DNA of 64,000 bases from an uncultured Chloroflexus sp. Lineage in GTDB: Bacteria; Chloroflexota; Chloroflexia; Chloroflexales; Chloroflexaceae. Made by a program: the position numbers and the translations under genes. The stretch lies in the NCBI RefSeq assembly GCF_937951745.1, contig NZ_CALFBQ010000038.1, forward strand, positions 1 to 64,000. Reading direction: 5' to 3'. Below are positions 24,499-43,515 of the stretch, piece by piece. Below the pieces are notes generated by a model. That model did no database searches and had not been told where the DNA came from. It was given only the letters and a program-made list of their open reading frames with translations. The first letter of the stretch is position 1. Every line of letters starts with the position of its first letter.

Positions 24499-27400
24499 TT
24501 ATGGCACGAGATCGCCGCCGCCGAAGTCATCAAATCCGGCGCCGCCGCTGTTGTAGAACCAGACGCCGATCCGGCCACCAGTGCCTACGTAACGGTTACC
24601 GGCAGCAGGTCGGGTATCAGCCACACCGATCCGTGCACAGCGCACAAAAACCTCAACGGTGCCATCGGCCCGTGCCCGCGCACCGAGAGTGTCACCGTTA
24701 GCAACAGTTGCAGCAAAGGTGGCAACAGTCACGAAACCCTGTCCCGGTACGAAGGCCTCGACGACCACGTGTTGGTTGACCGCATCGTAACTCACCAACA
24801 GCGCGCCATTCCGTCCGCCACTCCCGCGCACCTTCAGGGCCAGCGTGTGGTGCTGACCATTCGGGTCGATCGCCGTCAACCGCATGAAGGCTTCTTGATC
24901 TGGCCCAAACATAGTTGGCCGCCACAACGCAAGCCCGCCCTTCTCGACTGTCACCGCATTGCCATCAATCCGGTACTGGTCAAGCTGGGTTGCGCCACTC
25001 CAGTTCGATCCCAAGCGACCGTTGGCCCGGTCGAACGTATCAAGGGTAGGTGAACCCGGAAAGGGACGCACCTCCACTGTAACGGTTTGTACTGGTTCAA
25101 CATTCCCGGCTCCATCGCGGGCAAAGAACTCGACCGTGTAGGTACCCTCGCCGCTGAGCGTGAACGGATCGGTGTAGGGCTGGAACGTACCACCATTCAC
25201 GCGGTAGGTGATCGCAGCCACACCTGACCGATCATCGGTCGCACTCAGCGTGATTGTGACGTTACCAGCGTAGCAGTTGGCCGGGCAGAGCGGATTCGTT
25301 GGGCCGTTGATGCTAGCCGCCGTGACCGGCGGTGTACCATCAAGGTTGAGACCAACAACCACTGGATCGTGATCCGAGGTGCGGTAAAAGTCGGGTGCAT
25401 AGAGCGTGTTGATCTGGTTGGCCGATTTGAAGTTCGTGTTGTAATCGAGGACCGACGGCTCATCGGCATTGATATGCCATTCAGCTACACCGCTCACTTG
25501 GGCGCTCAGGCTGGCGTTTGCCAGTGCGTAGTCGAGATAGCCCCACTGACCGTTGAAGACATACGAATACGCATTTGGCCCGCCGAAGCGCTCGATCACA
25601 TTTTCGTAGCCTTGCGCCTCCAGCGCCCGGATGGGATCCTCTTTGGCATAGCTGTTGAGATCGCCGATGATCAACACGTCTGGATCGTTCACCCCGGTTG
25701 GGTCAGTTGCCAACCATGCTGCCAGCTCGTTGGCCGCATTGGTGCGCACGATGTTGCAGTTACCTTGCCCATCACCGGCATCAGGGGTATCGCAGGCGCT
25801 GCCCTTGCTCTTGAAGTGGTTGACCGTGACTACAAACCGTGCGCCACTGGCATTCTCGGCAAATGCTTGCGCCAGCGCCGCCCGATTGCGTGGTGCGCTG
25901 TCGCCGCCGGTGATAAATGCCGGCGTGTTGAGCGCCGCCGTCTGGCCAACCGGCGTGACTAGCGCTGGCTGGTAGATGATACCGACCTTGATCGCATCGT
26001 TCCCCAACGCATCAACCTGCCCGGTTGCTGCGTCCACATCAATAAACGCATACGTCCCCGGCGCAGTCACTGCATTGAGCCGGTTGACCAGATCGGCGAT
26101 GGCGCTATTCGGGCCATAGCCGTCATTCTCTATCTCTATCACACCTAGCACAGTAGGGTTGAGTGCAACAATGGCCGCGACAGTCTTGTTTGTCTGGCGG
26201 GCAAACTCAGTAGCATTCTCGGCTCCGCGGCAACCGGTTGGACTACCGGTCAGCCCATTGGTGCAGCCGCTGAAGGTATTGAAGTAGTTGAGGAGGTTCA
26301 TACCGACGACGGTGATGCTACCGCCAACGCTGGGAGGTGCAGTCGGTCGCGGATTATCGGCGGCAAAAGCCGGCACGCCACCCCCCGGCCACAGATCGCT
26401 TAGATCGCCGACCGGCCGTACTCGGTAGGCATTACCGCTCGCCGCATTGCCCGACCACGTATAGGTCATCACCCCGATGAGACCGGTCACACTATCACCG
26501 CCGCGTAGCGTATTGCTCGCGCTGAGCGGATTACCGCCGCGACCAAACAGGATCGGGTCGGGGTTCTGGTTTTGGAGATTGTCATCGACAATGATCCGGT
26601 TCAAGTCGTTAGCCGCTTGCACTGCCGCTGCCAACGGCCCCGGCGGGTAAAGGCTGGTCGGCTGGTAGAGGCGTGCTTCCGCTGACATCACCACCTGCCC
26701 AAACCGACCAAGCTGGAAATGCTCAGTAACGACCAACTTCATCGGGAAGCGCACCAGCATGCCCTCGTAGCGTTCGAGATAATCGGCGCTGGGGAAAGGC
26801 ATCGTTACATCAACGGGATCGACGGTACCGGTGCCGACGACGGTGATCTGCGTGGCGCTGATCTGGGTTTGGCCCTGAAATTCGCTGACTGTGCCACGTA
26901 CCCGCACCAGATCGCCGAGGTTCACGTTATTGTTGTTGTCGTTGAAGACAAAGATACCCTCTGACGTCAGTGGGTCAGCGTCCCAATCGGCAACCTCTTC
27001 TTGCACGTAAAAGCCGCGCAGATTGGGTGATGGCCCTTCAAAGTCACCGACCACGACGCCTTCAACCAGTACCTCTTCACTCACACAGGGCGAAATGTCG
27101 ATCGTGCCCTGAATCTGGCTGATCAGGCTCACATTCGGCACATCGGGACAATTGCCCGTCATCGGCGGCGGAGGCGGTGGCACGCTACACGGATTGGCCG
27201 GACTACTGGTATTGCGCGGATTGGGTGGCCCGGCGCTGAAATCGCTCGCGTTGTTATCGGTCTCGACACAACCATTGCCGTTGCGCAGCGCAGCCGTGGT
27301 ATTGCTTAGCGTTGGCGCAGGCGCACCTTCAAAAAAGTTCGCATTGCCGTAACCGACTAGATCGATAATCAGCGCCAACTGCGCCGGCGTACATGGCGTT

Positions 27401-27855
27401 GAACCGCCGTTGCAGGCAAGGCCGCTGGTGCTATTGACGAGCGCAAACTTGCCAGCGCTCGCGCTTGCATTGATTGCACCAGTCGCATTGGGCGTCGGCA
27501 GCGGTGCGCCCGCCGCACCACCGGCCAATTGTACGAGATAGTATTGGCCGGGAGCGAGCGACCCGCTTAAAAGCACGACCGGATTGTTGCCAAAATTGCC
27601 GGTGCCGGTGGCACTGGCGTATTGAATCGATAACCCACTCAGCGAGACGGTTGTTGTACCACGGTTGAAGAGTTCAACAAAGTCGTTTGTGTACGGCGCA
27701 CCACTATTGCCACCGCCGCCATACACTTGGCTAATGACCAAATCGGCGCTTACTGCGCGCACGACCGGTAGCCCAACCCCGAACGGTACGAACACAAACG
27801 CGATTACGAGCAATAACCCGACCCAGCGGCGGATTCCGCCAAATGCAGCATGCAT
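24499..27855 (-). CDS. Very large secreted endonuclease (ExeM/NucH-like) with lamin-tail and Ig-like domains
   Basis: About 1118 residues. After a signal peptide, a lamin-tail domain begins DLVISQVYGGGGNSGAPYT (about residues 37-55) and runs to about 215; a beta-rich OB-like domain follows (about 235-490). The endonuclease/exonuclease/phosphatase core (about 510-840) has VVGMNLLNYF, GVIEIENDGYG, VNHFKSKGSACD, IIGDLNSYAKEDP and the closing FYRTSDHDPVVVGL, with Asp and His of the active site present. An Ig-like segment (about 860-940) and a C-terminal jelly-roll-like domain follow. It would degrade extracellular DNA for phosphate, nucleosides or matrix turnover. The ATG at 27855 has GAGG 8 bases upstream. 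Confidence 0.88.
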   Translation of the reverse strand: MHAAFGGIRRWVGLLLVIAFVFVPFGVGLPVVRAVSADLVISQVYGGGGNSGAPYTNDFVELFNRGTTTVSLSGLSIQYASATGTGNFGNNPVVLLSGSLAPGQYYLVQLAGGAAGAPLPTPNATGAINASASAGKFALVNSTSGLACNGGSTPCTPAQLALIIDLVGYGNANFFEGAPAPTLSNTTAALRNGNGCVETDNNASDFSAGPPNPRNTSSPANPCSVPPPPPPMTGNCPDVPNVSLISQIQGTIDISPCVSEEVLVEGVVVGDFEGPSPNLRGFYVQEEVADWDADPLTSEGIFVFNDNNNNVNLGDLVRVRGTVSEFQGQTQISATQITVVGTGTVDPVDVTMPFPSADYLERYEGMLVRFPMKLVVTEHFQLGRFGQVVMSAEARLYQPTSLYPPGPLAAAVQAANDLNRIIVDDNLQNQNPDPILFGRGGNPLSASNTLRGGDSVTGLIGVMTYTWSGNAASGNAYRVRPVGDLSDLWPGGGVPAFAADNPRPTAPPSVGGSITVVGMNLLNYFNTFSGCTNGLTGSPTGCRGAENATEFARQTNKTVAAIVALNPTVLGVIEIENDGYGPNSAIADLVNRLNAVTAPGTYAFIDVDAATGQVDALGNDAIKVGIIYQPALVTPVGQTAALNTPAFITGGDSAPRNRAALAQAFAENASGARFVVTVNHFKSKGSACDTPDAGDGQGNCNIVRTNAANELAAWLATDPTGVNDPDVLIIGDLNSYAKEDPIRALEAQGYENVIERFGGPNAYSYVFNGQWGYLDYALANASLSAQVSGVAEWHINADEPSVLDYNTNFKSANQINTLYAPDFYRTSDHDPVVVGLNLDGTPPVTAASINGPTNPLCPANCYAGNVTITLSATDDRSGVAAITYRVNGGTFQPYTDPFTLSGEGTYTVEFFARDGAGNVEPVQTVTVEVRPFPGSPTLDTFDRANGRLGSNWSGATQLDQYRIDGNAVTVEKGGLALWRPTMFGPDQEAFMRLTAIDPNGQHHTLALKVRGSGGRNGALLVSYDAVNQHVVVEAFVPGQGFVTVATFAATVANGDTLGARARADGTVEVFVRCARIGVADTRPAAGNRYVGTGGRIGVWFYNSGGAGFDDFGGGDLVP

Positions 27856-28191
27856 ACCCTGCACCTCGTTGAATGACAGGCGAACATACTACCCAGCAGC
27901 GACACGGCCATGCGGCGGGTTTGCGAGGGGATGCAGACAAGGTACACCACGTCGCAATGGTTGAATAATCAAGCGTAGCAATGATAGCAGTAAACCTTGA
28001 AATCAGTGTTAAGGAATTGTTGGGATCGATAAACGATTTCATGACATTTTTGTCATTGTCATGATGAACAAAACGTCACGTGCAGTGCTGTGCAGAAGAG
28101 GTATAACGCTAAGACGCGAAGACCGCAAAGATACAGAGCATGATTGCGTTCCCCTTGCGCCTCTGCGGTTACCTCCTTTGTGCCCTTTACC
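27856..28191. other. Promoter region of the nuclease gene; palindrome and GCGCAAAGG repeat
   Basis: A 336-base gap. About 28098-28190 is a GCGCAAAGG-family repeat with AACGCTAAGACGCGAAGACC paired loosely with a CGCCTCTGCGGTT segment. A separate operator-like palindrome lies at 28039-28064. No clear -35/-10 pair was found for the nuclease gene and no gene is seen. Confidence 0.5.
28039..28064. promoter_or_regulatory. Operator-like palindrome TCATGACA-N10-TGTCATGA
   Basis: Perfect 8-base half-sites flank 10 bases that themselves contain a third TGTCAT. It is 184 bases upstream of the nuclease start. The geometry suits a dimeric regulator, but the spacing does not match the 11-base repeats of a PhoB box, so no factor is named. 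Confidence 0.4.
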
Positions 28192-30579
28192 TTAATCGAT
28201 CGTTCGCCCCATTCGGTATTTGATGTCGTAATTGAGAATAAAATCGACTGCTTCGGCGTTAAAACCGTAATCTCGACCAAGCTGACGGTCGATCCGGTCG
28301 AGGATCGGTTTGGCCGGTTTAGCGTCGAAGTTGATTTCACCGGTGTTGATCCTCTCGCCACGACGGATGCGGTGACAGCGGTGAGCCGCGTAGACCGCGA
28401 GTAGTTCGCGTTCAAGGGTGCAGTACGGTTCCACATCCACCAGATTCAGATCAAAAACCGGAAGTTCCAAAACTTCACGAGCGACAACATCCATGCAGTT
28501 GGAATTAACAATCCAATACCAGTAAAAGAGTTGGCTATTGAGCAAGGCGAATACGATCGGTCGCAGATGGACGGGTACCGTGATAGGTTTATAGTGGGAT
28601 GAGAGTTTTTCGGGCAAGGCTTTGCGCCAATAACGACCGCCAGAATGGTAGTAGATCGGTGTGCCGTGTTCGACAATGAAGTCTTTGAGTTTTTTCCGGT
28701 GTTGATGCATAGTGGTTAGGATGGCAATCTCAATCGGTGAGCCGATCTTGGGGAGTGGGTTGGCATGGGTAGTGATACCATCCCAACGGCAGTAGCTCAG
28801 CTTGGCGAAGAGAAACGGTCGGTCGCTCGGTGGGCGATTGAACCAACGGTGGTAGGTAGTGCTGTACACGCGCGCTTCACCGTCCGACTGATGTAAGAGC
28901 GTGATGGTGAGGTTCATATCAACACCGGCAAAGAGCTTTCCCGGTCGCACTGCATAGTGACTATGCCACTGAGTATAGCTGCGGTAGAGCTGTTGCAGCG
29001 GCCGCATCCTCTCGGTTGAGACCGACGCGATCGGGACGATCATGCCAAATCTGCCGTGCGGCTTAAGCAACTGCAATGCGCGTTCGATGACAAAGGCGTA
29101 GAGGTTGCCACTGCCTGCCGTCTGATACTCTACCATGCGGTAGTTGTGTTTGACGTTACGGTAGGGAAGGTAGGGCGGGTTACCGACAATCACGTCAAAC
29201 CCGCCATTGGCAAGAATTGTAGGGAACGCCTCATGCCAATTGAAGGTTTGGGTGTGGTGATATTGAGCAGGCGACGGGTGCGCCTCGATAGAGCCGTTTC
29301 CCTCTCCCACCAGCGCGTTACCTAGCCGGATAGTGTGGTCGAGGTTGGGCAACGGTGTGCGCAGGCCCACGTTAGCATATTCGGCAATAAGCACAAGCAG
29401 GAGGCGCAATTTGCAGACCTCAATCGCTTCTGGCATGAGATCAACGCCGTACAGATTATGTGCCACAATCCATTTGATAATCTGGTCGCTGCGATGAGCG
29501 TCAGCGCCTATTTCGTGTGATGCAAGCCAATCTGGTTGAATAGTGGCTATCCGTCCAAGCACAGCATGGTAGATCGGTGTCAGTACACGCAGGGCGGCGA
29601 GCAAGAATGCGCCTGAGCCAACCGTTGGATCAAGCACGCTGAGCGGAGGGTACCCGCCGTGCGGATCGCCGACGAGTGCGGTGAAGAGGGCCAAGAGGCG
29701 ATGCGGATCGAGCTGCGAGATCAGATCGGCCATGAGCGCGGTAAGGTCAAGGTTGGCGGTGATCGCATCGTTGATCGTGACAAGCTGGCCGCTGGTTGCC
29801 GCCGCGACAATGGCCGCTACTTGGGAATGCCGCGCAGCTTGTTCACGGTCAGTTTCGGTTGGTAAGGGGACGGCTTGCTGCATCGCTGGGTAGATGTAGC
29901 GGCGGATGTTCTGCGCTAAGGCGAGCGGTGCTAACGACAGCCCGGCCTTATCGAACAGCGCCGGGATGATAGTGGCGCGACAAATGTAGGCGCTAACGTC
30001 GTCGTGTGTATAATAGGCGCCTAGCTCCTTTTGGTTGATGGCTTGTTCGAGTGCGTAACCCACAATCTCAGGATCGATCTCGCGTTCGTGCCGCCCCGGT
30101 CGGCCATGCACATACCAGCACCACTGACCAAAAAAGGTGAAAAGCTGCTCGAACACACTGTCTGGAATGGTGATTGTATCGCCATGCTGCACTTCGAGTG
30201 GATGCGGAACAAAGAGGTTGCTCCCAAGGTAAGGAACATCACCGAGCAGACGGTTGGTCGCCGCGTCGCGCTCATCACGCACGCGGCCCAGCCCATCGAA
30301 CCAGAGCGCGCGTAACACATCACGGTAATAACGATCCGGGCCGAAGTGGGTACGACTCCACGCTAGCTGCTCAGGCAGATACGCCGGGTTGCGGTCAAGC
30401 CAGCCTTGGGTTTGGATGAACCAGAGCACAATCAGCCGTGACAGCAGCACCGTCGCATACCAGCGCCGCTCGTGTTCACACGCAATGCCCTGTATGCGAG
30501 CGTGTAAGCTGACGTAAGACGGTTGCAGTTCGGTGTAGAAATGGGCAGCGATTCGTTCGGAAGTGAGACAATGTTCCAT
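28192..30579 (-). CDS. Eco57I-like adenine-specific DNA methyltransferase
   Basis: A 795-residue N6-adenine DNA methyltransferase. A helical N-terminal part (RLIVLWFIQTQGWLDRNP) precedes ELGAYYTHDDVSAYI (motif X region, about residues 186-200), SAM-binding motif I VLDPTVGSGAFLLAAL (about 316-331) and catalytic NPPY (467-470). The C-terminal 300 residues should recognise the target. It resembles the methylase part of type IIG or BREX-like enzymes but is shorter, and no PD-(D/E)xK nuclease motif or restriction partner is visible. The ATG at 30579 overlaps the hypF stop as TGATG, so it is translationally coupled to hydrogenase maturation, an unexpected pairing. Solitary regulatory methylation or a relic defence gene are both possible. 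Confidence 0.85.
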   Translation of the reverse strand: MEHCLTSERIAAHFYTELQPSYVSLHARIQGIACEHERRWYATVLLSRLIVLWFIQTQGWLDRNPAYLPEQLAWSRTHFGPDRYYRDVLRALWFDGLGRVRDERDAATNRLLGDVPYLGSNLFVPHPLEVQHGDTITIPDSVFEQLFTFFGQWCWYVHGRPGRHEREIDPEIVGYALEQAINQKELGAYYTHDDVSAYICRATIIPALFDKAGLSLAPLALAQNIRRYIYPAMQQAVPLPTETDREQAARHSQVAAIVAAATSGQLVTINDAITANLDLTALMADLISQLDPHRLLALFTALVGDPHGGYPPLSVLDPTVGSGAFLLAALRVLTPIYHAVLGRIATIQPDWLASHEIGADAHRSDQIIKWIVAHNLYGVDLMPEAIEVCKLRLLLVLIAEYANVGLRTPLPNLDHTIRLGNALVGEGNGSIEAHPSPAQYHHTQTFNWHEAFPTILANGGFDVIVGNPPYLPYRNVKHNYRMVEYQTAGSGNLYAFVIERALQLLKPHGRFGMIVPIASVSTERMRPLQQLYRSYTQWHSHYAVRPGKLFAGVDMNLTITLLHQSDGEARVYSTTYHRWFNRPPSDRPFLFAKLSYCRWDGITTHANPLPKIGSPIEIAILTTMHQHRKKLKDFIVEHGTPIYYHSGGRYWRKALPEKLSSHYKPITVPVHLRPIVFALLNSQLFYWYWIVNSNCMDVVAREVLELPVFDLNLVDVEPYCTLERELLAVYAAHRCHRIRRGERINTGEINFDAKPAKPILDRIDRQLGRDYGFNAEAVDFILNYDIKYRMGRTID

Positions 30580-32906
30580 CACGCACACCTCAACCGCGCC
30601 CCAGCCACTGCCACCTGCCCCAACGCCAAGCCACCATCGTTCGGCGGGGCAAGGCGCGGGATCAGTACAGTAAAGCCATCGGCGCGCAACGCATCGGCCA
30701 GCGTCTCCAGAAGTAAGACATTTTGCAACACGCCGCCGCTGAGGGCAACAGTCGTGAGACCGCGCTCATCGCGCACCCGCCGGCAAGCCGCCAAGAGCGC
30801 CTGCGCAACCCCGTGATGCACCCGACCGGCGATTGCCGCCGGTGCAACCCCGGCCTGCAGATCATCAACCAGCGCCGCCAGCAGCGCTAATCCATCAAGT
30901 ATAAACGGCCCGCCAATAATAGCCGGTTCGCGGAGTGGCATTGGATAAGGCGGCTGTTGTGGATCGGCGATCTGCTCGAAGAGAATAGCCAGCTCGCCTT
31001 CGTAACGGGCAATCTGGCCCATGCCGGCCAGTGCGGCGGCAGCGTCGAAGAGCCGCCCAAGGCTTGAAGTGCGCGGGCTATTGAGGCTCCGTTCAATCAT
31101 ACGGGCCAACACCTGCCACGCCGCTTGATCGAGCTGCCGGGTAAACGGTAGCGCAAGTCGCCAGAAATCAGGGCCGTAGAGCTGAGCCAGCGCCGCTGCT
31201 GCCACCCGCCACGGCTGGCGCACCGCCTGCTCACCACCGGGCAAGGTCAGCGGCCTAAGATGACCGACACGCTCATACTCGGCACAGGTCGCTACCAGCA
31301 CCTCACCCCCCCACACTGTTCCGTCCGGCCCATAGCCGCTGCCATCGGCGGCAATCCCGATTACCGGCCCGGTGTGACCGTATTCGGCCAGCACAGCGGC
31401 AATATGGGCGTGGTGATGTTGCACGCCAATCTTACGTTCAATTGGCATTGCGAGTGCCGCTTGGGTAGCTAGATAGCCGGGGTGCAGATCGAAAGCCACT
31501 ACCTCGGGCACAATCTCAAACAACCGTTGAAAGTGAGCAATCCCCTCGTGGAACGAGCGCAGCGTAGGCAGATTTTCGAGATCGCCAATGTGATGACTCA
31601 GAAAGACCTCGCGCCCGCGAGCGAGAGCGAAGGTGTTCTTGAGATGGCCGCCGCAGGCGAGGATCGGGCAGGGCAGTTCGTGAGCCAGCGTGATCGGCGC
31701 GGGCGCATACCCGCGCGAGCGACGGATGAGGAGCGGCCCGCCGGCGGCTACGCGCGCCACACTATCGTCGCAGCGCATGTGGATCGGGCGGTTGTGGGTC
31801 AGGAAGGCATCAGCGATTGCACCCAACCGCTGCGCTGCATCCTCATCTTCATACGCAATCGGCTCATCACTCAGATTGCCGCTGGTTAGCACAATCGCCG
31901 CCACCCGCTGCGAACCAATGACCGCAGCATAATCGGCCAACAGAAGATAGTGCAACGGCGTGTAGGGCAACATCACCCCTAACGTCTGCATCCCCGGCGC
32001 AACCGACGGCGCAACCGGCGCGTCAGGCCGGCGCGGCATCAGCACAATCGGGCGGGCCGGACTCGTCAGCAAGGCATGTGATTGCGGATCGATCACGCAG
32101 AGCCGTGCGGTCATTTCCACATCACACGCCATCACTGCCAACGGTCGTGCCTCACGTTGCTTACGCTGGCGCAACCGGCGCACCGCCGCCTCGTCATCGG
32201 CGGCGCAGGCCAGATGGTAGCCGCCCAACCCCTTGATCGCCACGATCTGACCGTGCGCAAGCGCGGTCGCCGCCGCGATCAGCGGATCGGAATGCGAATC
32301 CATCTCTACCCCGCTTGCACCCCTGAAAAACCGCACCTGCGGCCCACACACCGGACACGCCGTTGGCTGAGCGTGAAATCGGCGGTCACGCGGGTCTTCG
32401 TACTCGGCTCGGCACCGCGCGCAGAGCGGGAAGCTACGCATCGTCGTGTTGGCGCGGTCGTAGGGCACATCGAGCACGATGGTAAAACGCGGGCCGCAGT
32501 TAGTGCAGTTGGTAAACGCATAGCGATAGCGGCGATCAGTTGGATCGGTAATCTCGCGCAGGCAATCGGCGCAGGTAGCGGTATCGGGCGCGATCAGCGT
32601 GCGGCGTTGGGCCTGCGTTTGGCTGGCCGCGATCACAAACTCGCGCTCGCCCAATAACGCCAGCGGCTCAACGCTCACCTGCTCGATGCGGGCGAGAGGC
32701 GGCGCTTCGCGTTGCAGCGCCATTACAAACTCGTGCAACAAGCCCTCCTCACCCTCGATTTCAATCGTCACGCCGGCGCTATCGTTGCGCACAAAACCGG
32801 CCAGCCCCCAACGTTCAGCCAAGCCAAACACAAAGGGCCGGAAGCCGACGCCTTGCACGATGCCGCGCACACTGATCCGCCAGCGCCGCTGCTGATAATT
32901 GATCAT
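30579..32906 (-). CDS. hypF: Carbamoyltransferase HypF, hydrogenase maturation
   Basis: About 775 residues, the usual length. HypF makes the thiocarboxamide on HypE from carbamoyl phosphate, the precursor of the cyanide ligands of the NiFe site. Domains in order: acylphosphatase-like (SVRGIVQGVGFRPFV, about residues 12-26), two zinc fingers (CADC...CTNC, CARC...CPVC, about 105-185), a YrdC-like domain, and a Kae1-like C-terminal domain with QHHHAHIAAVLAEYG. The start is the ATG at 32906, though an ATG at 32918 is also in frame; a longer frame upstream is repeat sequence. It diverges from the structural hydrogenase operon and runs into the methyltransferase gene. Confidence 0.94.
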   Translation of the reverse strand: MINYQQRRWRISVRGIVQGVGFRPFVFGLAERWGLAGFVRNDSAGVTIEIEGEEGLLHEFVMALQREAPPLARIEQVSVEPLALLGEREFVIAASQTQAQRRTLIAPDTATCADCLREITDPTDRRYRYAFTNCTNCGPRFTIVLDVPYDRANTTMRSFPLCARCRAEYEDPRDRRFHAQPTACPVCGPQVRFFRGASGVEMDSHSDPLIAAATALAHGQIVAIKGLGGYHLACAADDEAAVRRLRQRKQREARPLAVMACDVEMTARLCVIDPQSHALLTSPARPIVLMPRRPDAPVAPSVAPGMQTLGVMLPYTPLHYLLLADYAAVIGSQRVAAIVLTSGNLSDEPIAYEDEDAAQRLGAIADAFLTHNRPIHMRCDDSVARVAAGGPLLIRRSRGYAPAPITLAHELPCPILACGGHLKNTFALARGREVFLSHHIGDLENLPTLRSFHEGIAHFQRLFEIVPEVVAFDLHPGYLATQAALAMPIERKIGVQHHHAHIAAVLAEYGHTGPVIGIAADGSGYGPDGTVWGGEVLVATCAEYERVGHLRPLTLPGGEQAVRQPWRVAAAALAQLYGPDFWRLALPFTRQLDQAAWQVLARMIERSLNSPRTSSLGRLFDAAAALAGMGQIARYEGELAILFEQIADPQQPPYPMPLREPAIIGGPFILDGLALLAALVDDLQAGVAPAAIAGRVHHGVAQALLAACRRVRDERGLTTVALSGGVLQNVLLLETLADALRADGFTVLIPRLAPPNDGGLALGQVAVAGARLRCA

Positions 32907-42915: not shown

Positions 42916-42924
42916 GGGACGCAA

Positions 42925-43078
42925 CCGCACAGCCGCCAAAACGCAAAGGGCGCTGAAGTTGACCCAGCATACGATTCTCACCATAAAAACCCTTGCAATC
43001 CTTGCGTTCTCTGCGCCTTTGCGTTAACACCTTTGCGCCTATGCTTACTCTGCGCCTTGACGTTAGGAAAGGAAGCGC
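42925..43078. repeat. Long GCGCAAAGG inverted repeat before hypC
   Basis: AAAACGCAAAGGGCGC (from about 42938) faces CTCTGCGCCTTTGCGTTAAC (from about 43009), and further TTTGCGCC / CTCTGCGCC words follow up to 43060. The transcript can form a strong hairpin here, followed by the good hypC ribosome site. Confidence 0.6.
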
Positions 43079-43080
43079 GT

Positions 43081-43347
43081 ATGTGTCTCGGTATTCCCGG
43101 TCGCATCGTCGAAATCTACGACAACGGCCTCACCCGGATGGGTAAGGTTGATTTCAACGGCATTGTCAAAGAAGTGTGTCTCGCTTACCTACCCGATCTG
43201 CAAGTTGGTGATTACACAATCGTGCATGTAGGTTTTGCGATTACTCGCCTCGATGAGGAATCGGCGCGCGAAACGCTCGCCCTCTTCCAATCACTCGGTG
43301 TGCTTGAAGAGGAGCTTCATCCCGATGAATCGCCCGAATCCGTCTGA
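43081..43347 (+). CDS. hypC: Hydrogenase maturation chaperone HypC
   Basis: An 88-residue OB-fold chaperone that carries the Fe(CN)2CO unit with HypD and presents it to the large subunit. The N-terminus is MCLGIPGRIVEI, with the essential Cys2 exposed after Met removal, so the ATG at 43081 is certain; AGGAAG lies about 7 bases upstream. The middle has GKVDFNGIVKEVCLAYLPDL and the typical VGDYTIVHVGFAI. The acidic C-terminal tail (EEELHPDESPESV) is common in the family. It is the first of three maturation genes that close the operon. Confidence 0.94.
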   Translation: MCLGIPGRIVEIYDNGLTRMGKVDFNGIVKEVCLAYLPDLQVGDYTIVHVGFAITRLDEESARETLALFQSLGVLEEELHPDESPESV

Positions 43348-43515
43348 GGCGAAGGCGCAAAGATTCTACACGCAAAGGTGCAAAGGCGCTAAGATGCTAT
43401 AAGGTGAGTCTGTCACTACGCTTGTACCACCGTACAAAAAACGTAGTGTTCTTTGCGCCTTTGTGGTAAACCCTTTGCATCTACGCATTGATACGCATTG
43501 AATAGAGAGCACGTG
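43348..43515. repeat. GCGCAAAGG inverted repeat between hypC and hypD
   Basis: AAGGCGCAAAG and GCAAAGGTGCAAAGGCGC on the left (43350-43392) face CTTTGCGCCTTTGTGG and CCCTTTGCATC on the right (43451-43485), making another imperfect hairpin inside the operon. Confidence 0.6.

Follow-up and report, generated by a model that had tools for sequence, protein, structure and literature searches.

A probable solitary adenine-N6 DNA methyltransferase from a restriction-like operon in a variable site behind hypF of a Chloroflexus genome

Results and discussion

A gene that overlaps the end of hypF in an uncultured Chloroflexus sp. probably encodes a solitary adenine-N6 DNA methyltransferase (MTase) that came from a restriction-like operon, occupies a variable position downstream of hypF and, in this strain, is translated together with it. 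It lies in the 64,000-nucleotide stretch of DNA analysed here (the window). The initial annotation had suggested, as one of two readings, that this arrangement ties DNA methylation to H2 metabolism. In place of that unsupported link we find an example of a restriction-like system decaying to a lone methylase. Solitary copies have shed the same parts time and again, which hints at those pieces of the MTase that would be needed for restriction rather than methylation.

The MTase gene shares one base with an intact hypF

The sequence confirmed the reported sharing of one base between the hypF stop and the MTase start. The junction reads ...GTGTGCG-TGATGG..., with the following features around it:

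30579..32906, minus strand: hypF, carbamoyltransferase HypF, 775 aa, full length (TIGR00143, 784 bits, positions 1-739 of 741); start ATG at 32906, stop TGA at 30581-30579
30586..30591, minus strand: GAGGTG within hypF, Shine-Dalgarno-like by sequence and a putative ribosome-binding site, 6 nt 5' of the MTase ATG
30577..30581, minus strand: TGATG, overlap of the hypF TGA and the MTase ATG with one common base
28192..30579, minus strand: adenine-N6 DNA MTase, 795 aa; ATG at 30579-30577, stop at 28194-28192

The position of GAGGTG makes this MTase start plausible. The MTase is probably carried on the hypF mRNA, where it would be started either from its own GAGGTG or by re-initiating ribosomes. 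Short gene overlaps are ordinary in the window, where three further pairs, including hypA/hypB, overlap by 4 bp (28 co-directional neighbours). The G+C content of the MTase gene is 55%, versus 63.5% for hypF. Elsewhere among the hyp genes, the 582 bp that separate an NHL-repeat gene from hypD (42916-43497) could hold a small hypC.

Almost all Chloroflexus genomes have their own version of the last six or so HypF codons, among them one (G003) in which the site behind hypF is empty. Similarity between hypF genes stops about six codons short of the stop in most pairs, and with G001 it reaches within a few bases. Since these ends vary even in the empty-site genome, and the TIGR00143 match is full length, the hypF of the window was not cut short, and truncation of HypF by the MTase is ruled out.

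The protein has methyltransferase and target-recognition parts and no nuclease domain

Three Pfam families matched the MTase above their cut-offs (PF07669, Eco57I, E=1e-26; PF20473; PF02384), and the best PADLOC model, PDLC03628 (1,100 positions, named type IIG), matched at 2.6e-130 from profile position 157. An AlphaFold2 model built with 26 homologues (pLDDT 84, pTM 0.88) comprised a helical N-terminus, an MTase fold and a C-terminal target-recognition domain (TRD), and nothing further. Its best Foldseek matches in the PDB were the BREX methylases PglX/BrxX and the orphan methylase CamA. The parts of the protein are encoded as follows:

29671..30561, minus strand: helical N-terminal domain, residues 7-303 (AlphaFold2 model)
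29605..29631, minus strand: motif I, DPTVGSGAF, residues 317-325, SAM binding (sequence and alignment)
29236..29307, minus strand: site, before the catalytic motif, that lacks about 75 residues found in operon-borne relatives; 22 residues remain, G425-W448 (segment lengths in aligned homologues)
29170..29181, minus strand: catalytic motif IV, NPPY, residues 467-470 (sequence)
28210..28959, minus strand: TRD, residues 541-790, the best-conserved part among relatives

Both the SAM-binding and the catalytic motif are intact, and N467, P468 and P469 of motif IV are invariant in both family alignments. The C-terminal TRD would bind one DNA sequence, in which an adenine would be flipped out and methylated with SAM, and no cutting would follow.

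Pfam, the fold model and Foldseek revealed no nuclease domain in the protein, and the idea of a hidden one was rejected on these searches. The initial annotation had described the MTase as shorter than type IIG enzymes, which holds for this 795-aa protein; its proviso that a hidden nuclease domain might make it a stand-alone type IIG enzyme found no counterpart in the structure prediction, which returned only helical, MTase and recognition parts. A type IIG enzyme with a fused nuclease was also rejected, because homology to the operon MTases described below begins at residue 5-8 and leaves no room for their N-terminal domain of about 155 aa. In agreement with the earlier observation, we recognised no restriction or defence gene near the pair, and no BREX core gene beside the MTase, on inspecting the window ORF lists by eye. 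The same genome has another Eco57I-type MTase fragment, at the end of a contig (L201), that looked unrelated.

Operon-borne relatives carry a helicase-nuclease and two segments that the window MTase lacks

A family scan of 84,980 species genomes yielded 80 loci. Most of them encode, directly upstream of the MTase, a protein of about 1,130 aa with a PLD nuclease and an SNF2 helicase. The operon MTases measure about 1,050-1,220 aa (typically about 1,090 aa) and carry the extra N-terminal domain of about 155 aa; intact helicase/MTase operons are spread over many phyla. The window MTase has neither an adjacent helicase-nuclease gene nor the N-terminal domain. An intact PLD-SNF2 helicase is absent from its genome (4.25 Mb, 99% complete), which holds only a 63-residue relic with two stop codons on a different contig (L119:1714-1905). 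We propose that the ancestor of the window MTase was the modification subunit of such an operon, and that the helicase-nuclease, the N-terminal domain and the internal segment of about 75 residues would since have been lost.

Among the aligned homologues, the G425-W448 segment is 88-118 residues long in all MTases that have the N-terminal domain and is shortened in most that do not. It measures 22 residues in the window, 18-42 in the set formed by the window, G018a and G056a, 21-26 in six Roseiflexus-like genes, 8-58 in Ktedonobacteria and 6 in a Treponema; six solitary genes (G001, G004, G005, G007, G054 and L129) retain 74-95. The short-segment forms are spread over several separate clades on the tree, and the segment was therefore lost more than once. 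We infer that it serves restriction.

The N-terminal domain that is missing from the window MTase folded alone with a pLDDT of 87. Foldseek found no significant match to the lone domain, and VIA-align gave only weak ones, with Z at most 6.1 for unrelated folds, 5.6 for a putative restriction endonuclease and about 4 for Hjc resolvases. Its only invariant residues are W27, G54 and P67, and no nuclease triad is present. A few of the weak PDB matches are to PD-(D/E)XK-type enzymes, and the domain is possibly a degenerate PD-(D/E)XK-like fold.

Several intact PLD-helicase operons have, at or near the 3' side of the MTase, a gene of about 210 aa that looks DprA/SLOG-like by eye (L131:9787-10431, L144:9744-10358, L150:9868-10398, L172:9872-10510, L160:10906-11523 and L066:4014-4661), which suggests a third operon component. 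At L066:5734-10171, in G030, an operon MTase with the same TRD as the window MTase is split by a transposase-like insert; its helicase gene is unbroken, and the genome has a solitary copy at another place. Ktedonobacteria carry a tandem pair of family MTases that both lack the N-terminal domain and have no neighbouring helicase gene (L123:4473-9448, L147:4465-9451, L136:4461-9412 and L125:1339-6338).

The site behind hypF varies among Chloroflexus-group genomes

We compared synteny across eight Chloroflexus-group genomes, the window's included. The gene order hypB-hypA-DUF1641-hypF is common to all eight, and in several of them the far side of the gap behind hypF is bordered by a conserved gene:

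24499..27864, minus strand: conserved gene of 1121 aa that closes the variable spot on its far side and, by inspection, resembles an extracellular nuclease; 91-92% amino acid identity to G005 and G007

In the empty-site genome this gene adjoins hypF directly. The MTase is present in five of the eight genomes, always downstream of hypF, and only in the window do the two genes share a base. The MTase follows hypF by about 60 bp in G004, and by about 1 kb in G007 and 2 kb in G005 with PIN/VapBC-type toxin-antitoxin genes inside the gap; a partly masked PIN gene stands ahead of it in G001. The G005 gap (L056:5378-7179) contains two gene pairs, each of an antitoxin-like gene and a gene for a PIN-type toxin. 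In the remaining three genomes hypF is not followed by the MTase: the site is empty in G003, occupied by 5.7 kb that include a NACHT/FGE gene in G002, and taken by other genes in G006. The product of the NACHT/FGE gene (L061:8448-11129; 893 aa) joins a NACHT NTPase to an FGE-sulfatase domain, and the gene is a possible defence gene. The MTase site is thus a variable gap between hypF and the conserved nuclease-like gene, in which genes come and go among related bacteria. Two signs of a fortuitous pairing had been named beforehand, absence of the pair from close relatives and a rearranged junction. The first does not apply, with the pair found in four of the seven relatives; the second does.

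A functional tie to hydrogenase maturation, in which coupling to hypF would make methylation track hydrogenase expression, is very improbable. The TGATG overlap with its good ribosome site speaks for it, as does the location of the MTase on the hypF side of the gap in all five carriers of the group. However, the coupling exists in the window only, three genomes have hypF without the MTase, and the distance between the two genes in the remaining carriers ranges from 60 bp to 2 kb, often with toxin-antitoxin genes intervening. Nor did we find a consistent association with hyp genes outside the genus, where homologues, the Roseiflexus-like ones among them, stand beside unrelated genes. The contact between the MTase and hypF most likely arose by chance on insertion rather than from a methylation-H2 link; abutment on hypF would set the expression of the MTase and would imply no role in hydrogenase maturation.

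The window MTase is more diverged than its flanks

Between the window and G005, dS was 2.43 for the MTase, 0.52 for hypF and 0.64 for the downstream gene; the corresponding values between G005 and G007 were 0.33, 0.30 and 0.25. The window MTase thus exceeds each of its flanks about fourfold in synonymous divergence from the nearest relative, at MTase dS values that are saturated for all window pairs. Within the group, dN of the window MTase is 0.28-0.30. On the tree the MTases found behind hypF in the five carriers fall into a single clade (100/100), in which the window gene is placed next to G004 (99/97) on a terminal branch of 0.56, versus 0.22 for G004. Because the MTases form a single clade and hypF distances group the same five carrier genomes, the data fit one old insertion in the carriers' ancestor followed by vertical descent. 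With its dS far above that of both flanks, the MTase allele of the window was probably replaced by a diverged one; given the saturation of dS, unusually fast evolution is a possible alternative. The earlier suggestion of a chance insertion of a defence gene largely stands, in view of the stripped relationship to PLD-helicase/MTase operons, the variable spot and the high dS. Its second part, that the insertion took over the end of hypF, does not, as hypF is full length.

Relatives of the window MTase are under purifying selection

Values of dN/dS for the MTase were 0.17 for G005/G007 and 0.20-0.24 for Roseiflexus-like pairs, and those for the TRD in the same relatives were lower than for the whole gene (0.11-0.18). 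These ratios indicate that the MTase is under purifying selection in relatives. In 69 of 78 pairs of solitary genes, versus 4 of 1,128 operon pairs, the TRD was better conserved than the scaffold; this comparison is inflated, as the solitary set was collected in part by TRD similarity. Across the class, a TRD at least 50% identical occurs at 22 places in 20 of 158 genomes, and identity among relatives is 50-72%.

We consider it quite unlikely that the MTase is merely what is left of a restriction system in decay and now lacks a function. Its long terminal branch, lost parts and patchy presence would agree with decay, but the reading frame is fully open, the motifs are intact, the fold is predicted confidently, and relatives show low dN/dS and a TRD held at the identity given above.

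The solitary MTase gene has a constant neighbour in five Roseiflexus-like genomes, a sugar-dehydrogenase gene; the opposite flank of the MTase gene is sdhB in G030, G068 and G071 and a citrate synthase gene in G036 and G070. This stable place fits a housekeeping role as well as it fits a shield against incoming restriction of the same specificity (molecular vaccination), in which the MTase would methylate the sites targeted by PLD-helicase operons with the same TRD. Operons with the helicase, the N-terminal domain and the same TRD do exist in the same order (G052, G059, G061), and G030 and G056 each combine a solitary copy with operon genes whose same-TRD MTase is broken; yet co-occurrence of a solitary copy and an operon is rare, and we judge vaccination unlikely. 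For the solitary methylase proposed here, self-marking or regulation would be the likeliest role. It is conceivable, if doubtful, that a one-target methylase has been kept across Chloroflexales after several lineages independently shed the PLD-helicase, the N-terminal domain and the internal helical segment, and is now an epigenetic regulator; the lost segment would then indicate the surface that couples methylation to restriction.

Comparison with known systems

One close counterpart is the operon of a PLD(HKD)-SNF2 helicase and an MTase (PADLOC C3a139 'HKD+Snf2' and PDLC03628 'REase_MTase_IIG'), which has a homologous MTase core and TRD; the operons of G052, G061 and G059 carry the same TRD at 51-65% identity. 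The window gene differs in lacking the helicase, the N-terminal domain and the internal segment. An architecture of HKD-SNF2 helicase, N6-MTase and DUF499 ATPase has been described for DUF499-centred BREX-related (BR/Hma) systems, of which type-2 BR likewise has the helicase and MTase (PMC12839542). Judging neighbour genes by eye, we recognised no DUF499 ATPase beside the PLD-SNF2/MTase operons inspected, which more often have the DprA-like gene.

BREX PglX/BrxX, the best PDB fold match, shares the order of helical N-terminus, MTase and TRD, whereas the window MTase scores 55.7 bits against a cut-off of 900 bits for PglX and has no recognised BREX core gene adjacent. Type IIG restriction-modification enzymes, whose name PADLOC gives to the family, have the same MTase fold class; the window MTase is shorter and has no fused nuclease domain. 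Our literature search found nothing relevant on a Chloroflexus methylome. The combination of conserved orphan methylases with patchy restriction systems is familiar from earlier work (PMC6471742, PMC13076061, PMC12707154). Like the solitary MTases CamA (itself among the best fold matches), Dam and CcrM, the window MTase has a conserved TRD and purifying selection in its relatives; of the helicase partner of its own family, we found no more than the 63-residue relic in its genome. Unlike them it is much larger, has a different family history, is patchy within its genus and has a predicted function.
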